Shown in pieces: positions 61,786 through 64,000 of a stretch of DNA of 64,000 nt (positions are counted from its first letter, which is position 1; every line of letters starts with the position of its first letter). Below the pieces are notes generated by a model. It made no database searches and was not told the origin of the DNA. It saw nothing but the letters and a program-made list of their open reading frames with translations. The stretch covers positions 4,674,769-4,738,768 of the forward strand of contig NZ_KI913949.1 in NCBI RefSeq assembly GCF_000332095.2. The letters are read 5' to 3'. Made by a program: the position numbers and the translations under genes. The stretch is from Leptolyngbya sp. PCC 6406 (lineage in GTDB: Bacteria > Cyanobacteriota > Cyanobacteriia > Phormidesmidales > Phormidesmidaceae).

Positions 61786-61837
61786 TGTGCGAGAGAAGGG
61801 TTGTTCCTATGGGTGTGTTATGCACGTCTTTATGTGG

Positions 61838-62078
61838 GCGGTGCATTGCGGCTAAGGGGGTTGGTCTCGGAGTTGCGAAGGAGGTTGGTGCCGCGAATGC
61901 ACCCTACGGGAATTCTGGAGGTGTGCGTCGCGTAACGCCAATGCGAGGCTATGCCAACGCGAAGCAATGCACCAAAATCTATCAACCGTGAGCGGTGCAT
62001 TGCGGCCAGGAAGGTTAATCTCATATTTGCCAAGGATATTGATGCCGCGAATGCACCCTACGGGCATTCTGGAGGTGG
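61838..62078. repeat. REP array, left flank of the RAYT gene
   Basis: Three related units lie in 240 bp: 61838-61916 and 61988-62071 as direct copies, each running from GCGGTGCATTGCGGC to GCGAATGCACCCTACGGG, with a shorter reversed unit between them (CGCGAAGCAATGCACC at about 61958). The core GGTGCATT/AATGCACC is an inverted repeat. Such units are what RAYT transposases recognise and move. Confidence 0.82.
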
Positions 62079-62094
62079 TGCGTCTTGTCTGGCT

Positions 62095-62577
62095 ATGCCG
62101 AATTATCGACGTTTTCATGGTGCTGGTGGCAGCTATTTCTTTACCCATGTCACCTATCAACGCTACCCGTGGCTATGTACCGATCTGGGCAGACAGTCCC
62201 TGAGGGAGGCTATCGTTACCATCCGCAAAAAGTACCCCTTTACCATTGATGCTTTTGTCTTACTGCCTGATCATTTGCACTGTATTTGGACGTTGCCTGA
62301 GGAGGACAGCGACTATGGCAAGCGGTGGCGATTAATCAAGCTGATGGTTACCAAGGCGTGTGGCCAAAAATTGGCGCTGCCCTCGGAGAAAACTCTGTCA
62401 GGCGAACGGCGACAGGAAGGTAATCTCTGGCAGCGCCGCTATTGGGAGCATTGTCTCCGCGATCAGCAGGATTTCATCAACCATTGCGAGTACATTCACC
62501 ACAATCCGGTGAAACACGGCTTGGTTGCTTGTCCTACCGATTGGCCCTATTCCAGCATCCATCGATATTTAACGTAG
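62095..62577 (+). CDS. REP-associated tyrosine transposase (RAYT, IS200-like)
   Basis: From ATG 62095 the product has 160 residues (the earlier start at 61951 would run through REP DNA). The HUH motif is LPDHLHCIWTLP. The catalytic tyrosine is in HCEYIHHNPVKHGLV. The start PNYRRFHGAGGSYFFTHVTY and the QRRYWEHCLRDQQDFINHC helix are typical. This Y1 transposase cuts single strands at folded REP sequences. All catalytic residues are present, so it may be active. It is embedded in its REP array at 61838-62832, a unit known as a REPtron. A decayed fragment is at 53793-53879. Confidence 0.92.
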   Translation: MPNYRRFHGAGGSYFFTHVTYQRYPWLCTDLGRQSLREAIVTIRKKYPFTIDAFVLLPDHLHCIWTLPEEDSDYGKRWRLIKLMVTKACGQKLALPSEKTLSGERRQEGNLWQRRYWEHCLRDQQDFINHCEYIHHNPVKHGLVACPTDWPYSSIHRYLT

Positions 62578-62586
62578 GTACAAACG

Positions 62587-62832
62587 TAGGGTGCATAACG
62601 CCAAGGCGAGGCTCCGCCAACGCGAAGCAATGCACCAAAACCGTGGCCGCAATGCACCGCAAGCCGTGGCCGCAATGCACCAAAAACCGTAGGGTGCATT
62701 CGCGAAGCAATGCACCGCAAGCCGTGGCCACAATGCACCGAAACCTATCTGTGGGCGGTGCATTGTGGCTAAGGGGGTTGGTCTCGCTGTTGCGAGGGAG
62801 GTTGGTGCCGCGAATGCACCCTACGGGCTGGC
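62587..62832. repeat. REP array, right flank of the RAYT gene
   Basis: At least five AATGCACC or GGTGCATT cores in alternating orientation, linked by GCAAGCCGTGGCCGC-type spacers. 62689-62716 is identical to 53889-53916 (inverted). 62753-62832 is a direct copy of 61838-61916 with a few changes. Spacing between cores is irregular (about 20-45 bp), not that of a CRISPR. Confidence 0.82.
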
Positions 62833-62833
62833 T

Positions 62834-62966
62834 ACGTTTGCTAGTGGCGACCGATCTGGTGCCAGAGGAGCGCATGAGGGGATTGATGGGTGAGTCGGAA
62901 GAGTTGGTGAAGATTATGTCGAAGATTGTGGTGAGTGCGAAGGGGAAGAATAAAGTTCAAAGTTAA
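62834..62966 (+). pseudogene. C-terminal fragment of a four-helix bundle (23S rRNA IVP-like) protein
   Basis: The last 44 codons of a plus-strand frame give LLVATDLVPEERMRGLMGES followed by EELVKIMSKIVVSAKGKN. This resembles the last helices of the four-helix bundle family related to intervening sequence proteins of 23S rRNA. Nothing similar precedes it; the REP array does. It ends 11 bp before the end of the NACHT-GUN4 gene on the other strand. The match is short, so confidence is low. Confidence 0.4.
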
Positions 62967-62977
62967 AAATTCAAAGT

Positions 62978-64000
62978 TCAAAAAGGGTGGATTTTGATGT
63001 TTTTGAATTTACAATTTTGCATTAAACCGCTACAGTTTACAAGTCTCGGTGCGAGAGAAGAAGACAACAAATCCACAATCAATGAATCACCAAGGGCAAC
63101 CCAGATGGGAGATTCTCCCTCCGGAGATAAAGAGGGATTCGCTTGGAGGTTGTCGTAGTTCAGATATTCGCCGCCTTTGCGCCAGCCGACGCGATCCGCA
63201 AATTTTTCGAAAGTGTCTTTATGATACTGGCCATCGAGTGGGTTGCCTGTCTCTACATAGATTTTCTTTTGCACGCTAAAGCCAAATTTGCCCCGGCTAT
63301 ACTTCACCCATAGCCCATCTATGGTCAACAGCTCGTCGCAGGGAAAGTTCAGCAGTTCTTCCGAATCAAACCACTGCCCGTCTTCCTTGCCAACGGTTGT
63401 AATCATCAGTCGATAGGTCTCTTGATCGGCTTCTCGCCACTGGCCATTTTTGAGGTAGTCCTCTAGCTGTTGATAGCGCGAGGTGGTGACGGTTTGCTGG
63501 AGTCCCTTTAGCTCCTCCTCTAGTTCTGGGGTCAGGCGTTTGGTGGTGTCTTGCCAGCAGGCGTAGGCCAGGTCGGTGGCTCCCCGGTCGAGCATGGCTC
63601 GCAACAGGGGGGCGGGTTTCACCTGGGCGGCGTAGAGGGAAATGGTGGGTTTCCACCAATCATCGGCAAAGTGGTCGTAGAGCAATTCTTCTTGTCCGAT
63701 GCGGGCCAGTTCGGCGGCGGTCAGGTATTCCTGAAAGCTGAGGTGGGCAAATTCGTACTCGTCCTCCTGCTGCACCAGCAGCTCACTAATCTGCACCACT
63801 TGGTCGATAAATTCCGCTGCATCCACAGCTTCTTCCTGCTGGTGCAGGCATTGGGTCATAAAGCGCCGCAGATCCCCTTGGGGAATGCGCTCTTGGCGCT
63901 GCTGCATCATGTGCAGGGCCAGCATTTGCAACAGGGTTTGGGCTTCGCACTGGGTCAGCAAGGAGTCGAGTTCGCGGGCGCGGGGACGGTCTTTGAGTTG
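62978..64000 (-). CDS. NACHT-type STAND protein with C-terminal GUN4 domain (N-terminus outside window)
   Basis: The frame is open to the right edge, so the NTPase domain itself is not visible, only 340 C-terminal residues. The first part (ELDSLLTQCEAQTLLQMLAL, FAHLSFQEYLTAAELARIGQ) is the helical region that follows NACHT NTPases; EFAHLSFQEYLTA is diagnostic. From about residue 180 the GUN4 domain appears: RYQQLEDYLKNGQWREADQE, FPCDELLTIDGLWVKYSRGK, FGFSVQKKIYVETG and EKFADRVGWRKGGEYLNYDN. GUN4 binds porphyrins and activates magnesium chelatase. As a sensor on a STAND protein it may detect tetrapyrroles or control cell fate. The tail after the domain (PRLVNCSGLMQNCKFK) is not family-like. 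Confidence 0.85.
   Translation of the reverse strand, partial: QLKDRPRARELDSLLTQCEAQTLLQMLALHMMQQRQERIPQGDLRRFMTQCLHQQEEAVDAAEFIDQVVQISELLVQQEDEYEFAHLSFQEYLTAAELARIGQEELLYDHFADDWWKPTISLYAAQVKPAPLLRAMLDRGATDLAYACWQDTTKRLTPELEEELKGLQQTVTTSRYQQLEDYLKNGQWREADQETYRLMITTVGKEDGQWFDSEELLNFPCDELLTIDGLWVKYSRGKFGFSVQKKIYVETGNPLDGQYHKDTFEKFADRVGWRKGGEYLNYDNLQANPSLSPEGESPIWVALGDSLIVDLLSSSLAPRLVNCSGLMQNCKFKNIKIHPF

Follow-up and report, generated by a model that had tools for sequence, protein, structure and literature searches.

The gene at the end of the window (the 64,000-nucleotide stretch of Leptolyngbya sp. PCC 6406 analysed here) encodes a STAND NTPase whose GUN4 domain probably serves as the scaffold for a diversified recognition tip and not as a porphyrin sensor. 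The ORF at 62978–64000 (minus strand) was open at the window end, and the source genome (5.78 Mb, three contigs) was used to complete it; the gene extends 1,284 bp further, to position 4740052 of contig G000:C1. The whole gene comprises 768 codons (G000:C1:4737746-4740052, minus strand, corresponding to L005:2747-5053). The window holds its 3' part, which encodes the last 340 aa of a 768-aa protein with a hydrophobic N-terminus followed by NACHT and GUN4. Pfam analysis of the whole protein revealed NACHT at aa 192–352 (50.2 bits, cut-off 26.7) and GUN4 at aa 600–731 (120.6 bits, cut-off 29.2), bearing out the proposal of an earlier, sequence-only reading that a STAND-type NTPase here ends in GUN4. 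As in STAND/NACHT NTPases, a P-loop with a Walker A motif (GGYGKTT, aa 191) is combined with an acidic Walker B-like motif (VIMLDGFDE, aa 277). The N-terminal part obtained from the genome thus contains the expected NTPase, preceded by hydrophobic helices (two borderline stretches near aa 13–66) and not by an enzyme, and the earlier placement of the sensor in the C-terminal part of the STAND protein is also supported.

Searching 58 other genomes with the whole protein revealed full-length or near-full-length homologues at 40–76% identity in many of them, so the NACHT-GUN4 architecture is not a chance one; the NACHT and GUN4 cores were strongly conserved among these homologues. One of them (L029) carries an apparent TIR-like N-terminus, as read from its translation, in place of the hydrophobic helices, and the N-terminus therefore behaves as a swappable effector. 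The source genome contained nine GUN4 matches, one standalone and the rest mostly within longer ORFs, including two adjacent TIR/SEFIR-GUN4 genes, one NACHT-FGE-GUN4 gene and, on contig C3, a caspase-like GUN4 ORF (read from its translation). A PADLOC match of the window protein to the phage-defence kinase PD-T4-6 (4e-35) was rejected: it covered only profile positions 240–448 and fell on aa 535–752, the GUN4-containing half, and the Pfam scan of the window protein found no kinase domain of the kind that defines PD-T4-6.

Comparison of fused GUN4 genes revealed a hypervariable DNA stretch, V, directly after a conserved GHLP motif (148 distinct V, 22–198 bp). V is G/T-rich, and in contrast to the GUN4 core this bias hardly differs among codon positions 1, 2 and 3; it also changes little along V. 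On its 3' side follows a near-invariant DNA segment, the cap, whose alignment (152 distinct copies) was mostly near-invariant from −3 to +28; up to −6 there was only a shared composition (about G 43, T 30, A 17 and C 10%), and beyond the stop codons conservation was weaker yet persisted. The same cap DNA, found across different cyanobacterial families, is translated as SSLASRLVNCNI, LFSRVETCKL or LLSRRDL, depending on the frame. The three frames were used 59, 45 and 44 times (148 cases, chi-square p 0.24), cap identity was 0.768 both between copies in the same frame and between copies in different frames (permutation p 0.54), and the least conserved codon position shifted with the reading frame, so the cap is conserved as DNA. 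Since each frame encodes a short tail and then soon a stop, the protein can be terminated correctly whatever the length of the insert. At 122 caps the frame stayed open from the GUN4 core across V and the cap, and at 5 a stop preceded the cap, which argues for selection on the translated product. Beyond the stop codon lies a further element, R, ending in TTCCGATACCTGGCAC; of the 65 cases in which the distance from cap to R-end could be measured, 54 had 103 bp, and the R-end motif was rare (10 exact matches in 146 genomes, 0 in the reversed control). RNAalifold detected next to no RNA fold in R, and no other target structure was found in it.

Cap matches occurred in 25 of 146 genomes of the phylum and in none of the reversed controls; at least 116 stretches were present in the genome collection, all of them cyanobacterial among the matches listed, and none was found in viral contigs. 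When 71 V-bearing proteins were scanned, the matches included kinase (34), caspase (11), TIR (11) and NACHT (9) domains. Kinase, caspase, TIR and NACHT domains are the set from which prokaryotic conflict systems draw their effectors. A defence role of the NACHT-GUN4 proteins is plausible from this domain company, and the best reading of the sequences is that STAND, TIR, caspase and kinase effectors alike carry a diversified recognition tip.

The same order of elements was recognizable in the window copy, all on the minus strand. The GESP codons at 63107–63118 occupy the position of the GHLP motif and mark the left boundary of V, which is 42 nt long (IWVALGDSLIVDLL, 63065–63106) and takes the place of residues 209–217 of porphyrin-binding GUN4. 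This V was unrelated in sequence to that of a relative from the same genus (L024), and no second copy was reported in the source genome. The cap (TTCTCTCGCACCGAGACTTGTAAACTGTA, 63031–63059) differs from the consensus by one substitution and reads SSLAPRLVNC in the frame used. It is followed by a degenerate tail (62978–63030) in which R is lost and no R-end motif was found; the copy is therefore probably no longer an active cassette.

To compare V with its flanks, we used 141 pairs of related genes, measuring upstream identity over 300 bp and taking random pairs as the baseline for V identity (0.435, sd 0.11). Median V identity was 0.52 in the 13 pairs that were 90–95% identical upstream and 0.48 in the 63 pairs at 85–90%; in these related pairs the median identity of R was 0.85, while V lengths differed. 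For example, L158 and L182 had an upstream identity of 0.95 and a V identity of 0.51 (V lengths 32 and 49), and L199 and L259 had identities of 0.96 in R and 0.38 in V (V lengths 114 and 74). Some close pairs retained their V, as in two of the five pairs at 95% or higher upstream identity, where V was near-identical, and in L141 and L143, where it was identical, so replacement is episodic. Sequence comparison thus gives good support to the view that V is exchanged as a block of free length between the fixed GHLP boundary on one side and cap plus R on the other.

As to the source of the exchanged DNA, a 60-nt V, the single V examined in this way, occurred once in its own two-contig genome, and no donor was found there. 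Local BLAST of V against the other loci returned about as many matches as reversed V, except where close relatives shared nearly all or part of one V. Phages were considered as donors and rejected: two V had no phage match at all, and one of the two had only a 34-base plasmid match (E 0.8). V composition did not differ between loci with and without an intact Y1 transposase gene, nor between those with and without a complete R. The composition and free length of V, together with the finding of no donor in the single genome examined, suggest that V may be of untemplated origin.

Apart from the GUN4 gene itself, the neighbour that recurred most often across 80 loci was a Y1 transposase, lying convergently 60–401 bp behind the cap. 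It was present within 600 bp, always convergent, at 24 of the 141 caps with enough downstream sequence (17%). In the reverse search, starting from Y1, 16 of 22 matches outside genome G182 adjoined a fused GUN4 gene in what we read as convergent orientation, and in a Nostocaceae-type family sample Y1 stood next to fused GUN4 in 22 of 29 loci; at 30 loci with standalone GUN4, no Y1 was found nearby. The HUH motif (HVH/HIH) and the catalytic tyrosine (YIHANP) were kept in the seven Y1 copies checked. Y1 near R matched PF01797 (67.7 bits) and scored 69 bits against NF047646, below the cut-off of 80. It shares the HUH-Y1 core with RAYT/TnpA-REP (Y1) transposases but differs in being tied to an R of fixed length behind hypervariable genes, with an R-end that is no dispersed REP. 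By its position, at a minority of caps, Y1 could be the enzyme of V replacement; because only 17% of caps adjoin it, it would have to work in trans or disappear once used, or else Y1 is not the enzyme responsible. Separately, the picocyanobacterium-like genome G182 holds ten Y1 relatives (about 45–53% identity), with no GUN4 nearby in the loci read.

Y1 was also convergent with cyanobactin precursor genes in three loci (L288, L296 and L298), where cores differed between constant leader and follower, and the distance from ORF end to R-end was 114 bp in four copies. At L288:755-1431, L296:565-1431 and L298:1093-1317 (Y1 on the minus strand), anacyclamide-type precursors precede an R-like element that terminates in TTCCGATACCTGGCAC, with Y1 behind it. 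These precursors thus resemble fused GUN4 genes: constant flanks enclose a hypervariable core, and R-like DNA and the same Y1 come next. The product, however, is a small precursor peptide and not a sensor, and the follower is read in one frame. In the published sph and art cyanobactin clusters, a transposase lies between the E (precursor) and F (prenyltransferase) genes.

These associations could also arise if R and Y1 were a selfish homing element that repeatedly became attached, at the 3' end, to fused GUN4 (and cyanobactin) genes, with V as the insertion scar. The transposase ancestry of Y1, the fixed length and ends of R and the orphan R or cap copies at L142, L148 and L343 are in keeping with such an element. 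However, no common sequence was found 5' of Y1, Y1 is absent at most caps, the cap supplies a workable terminus whichever frame is used, and the ratio of 122 open V to 5 with a stop is far above that of random sequence, in which about 5% of codons are stops; we consider this explanation unlikely.

A diversity-generating retroelement (DGR), in which V would be written by reverse transcriptase (RT) from a template repeat with adenine mutagenesis, is suggested by cyanobacterial DGRs that diversify the same kinds of effector in C-type lectin domains and by the presence of GUN4-like domains among DGR targets (PMC7517822). These systems likewise place a short hypervariable 3' segment in a ligand-binding domain fused to kinase, caspase or TIR. 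They differ from the present genes in that V changes length and frame, a three-frame DNA cap follows, Y1 is the neighbour and no template repeat was found. DGR copying is not known to allow such free change of length or frame, and V is free in length and occurs in all frames. Cap matches in the 146 genomes lay almost all at GUN4 genes, with no separate template repeat seen, the single V tested occurred once in its own genome, and no RT was a recurrent neighbour in the 80 loci. The combination of RT and a template repeat of matching length was thus not found in the genomes and loci searched, a search that was not exhaustive, and we regard a DGR as quite unlikely.

The sequence-only reading had interpreted GUN4 as a tetrapyrrole sensor, which would gate the STAND protein or another effector by photosynthetic status, and it has been proposed in the literature that GUN4, when fused to kinase, caspase and TIR, senses tetrapyrroles within conflict systems (Kaur et al. 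2020, PMC7159879). In keeping with such a role, the GUN4 fold is kept in the predicted structure of the window protein. Sequence comparison matched the domain (PF05419, 63092–63487, minus strand) to solved GUN4 structures (best E 4e-12), and its AlphaFold model, with a core pLDDT of about 90 and low confidence at the insert and the very C-terminus, matched solved GUN4s of Synechocystis, Thermosynechococcus, Chlamydomonas and Arabidopsis in Foldseek (2.5e-07 to 7e2r; TMq 0.71 to 4xkb/4xkc). In Synechocystis GUN4, W192, F196 and R214 matter in porphyrin binding (PMC8967248); this numbering was verified against the PDB sequence. Alignment showed F196 and R214 in 31/31 standalone GUN4s each. Among 103 other GUN4 domains, nearly all fused, F196 was present in 3/103, the position being mostly L, I or V, and R214, which falls within the insert, in at most 2/103. 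In the window GUN4 the three positions read Y, L and L, and the segment 209–217, which holds R214, has been swapped for the hypervariable insert. Synechocystis and Arabidopsis GUN4 thus share the fold with fused GUN4 but have an NQLRG segment where fused GUN4 has V and cap and lacks F196 and R214. With F196 and R214 gone from the window protein and nearly all of the 103 domains, and the R214-bearing loop being the most variable part, tetrapyrrole sensing is very unlikely; loss of the porphyrin-binding residues had been named beforehand as the observation that would speak against it.

Ordinary fast evolution or relaxed selection can make protein tails variable, as they often are, but given sharp borders, 3' DNA conserved in three frames and block replacement of V beside flanks about 90% identical, it is barely tenable here.

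Under the preferred reading of GUN4 as a scaffold for a diversified tip, a Y1/HUH transposase of the kind found convergent next to R would nick at or near the cap, the gap would be repaired with G/T-rich DNA, either untemplated or copied at random, and then sealed again, and those cells would be retained in which the frame is open and the tip is useful. Once the tip met its ligand, the NACHT module would oligomerise and activate the N-terminal hydrophobic helices or, in relatives, TIR, caspase or kinase. Cyanobacteria would then seem to randomise sensor-protein tips by a route not described before, perhaps with a domesticated transposase; no account of such tail diversification was found in the open-access PMC papers searched. 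More tentatively, and with somewhat less than even confidence, the data may be read as a bacterial counterpart of junctional diversity, in which Y1 drives the template-free insertion of random sequence, unrestricted in length, both at the tips of immune-type receptors and in cyanobactin cores, while a three-frame cap rescues whichever frame results. In vertebrate-type V(D)J joining, junctional (N-region) diversity likewise places sequence of random length between fixed segments, the next of which is readable in several frames; the likeness is one of analogy only.

If correct, this would add a second bacterial route to receptor-tip diversity beside retroelements, and GUN4 fusions would be seen as diversified receptors instead of pigment sensors. 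Cyanobactin core hypervariability has been known for long, and the system would offer a possible source of it. It would also provide a host function for domesticated RAYT transposases; their domestication for single-strand DNA editing has been proposed (PMC6006769).

The surroundings of the window gene were only in part the accessory region that had been described. On one side, about 400 bp downstream and convergent with the GUN4 gene, lies an IS200-like Y1 (REP-associated tyrosine) transposase ORF (61951–62577, plus strand, likely start 62095), accompanied on that side by a weak HTH and a DUF2442 protein. On the other side, translations revealed transketolase-like, KASII-like and other housekeeping-looking ORFs, so the region is not an obvious defence island. 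The window Y1 scored 186.5 bits against NF047646, above the cut-off of 80, and belongs to another subfamily than the Y1 flanking intact R elements. REP-like repeats of 90 nt surround its gene (61834–62840) and recur upstream of the NACHT-GUN4 gene; one direct repeat lies at 61834–61923 (plus strand), one of 7 copies of the family on both sides of the gene, and further window copies lie near 61988–62077 and 62751–62840 (converted from L005 by adding 60231). Because R is lost and the window Y1 is of another subfamily associated with REP-like repeats, the window shows a product and not a complete cassette; with V and cap kept, R lost and REP repeats flanking, this product is probably a frozen one.

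Three further arrangements were observed. At L142:1400-1560 (G190), the GUN4 domain is absent and a kinase gene passes directly into a V-like stretch and cap. At L343:1200-1500, an orphan cap and R, both degenerate and lacking GUN4, lie behind a tRNA-like sequence. At L324:540-1370, another ORF has a G-run and a GCTTGCATC-rich stretch before the R-end motif and Y1, and may represent a further type of target.
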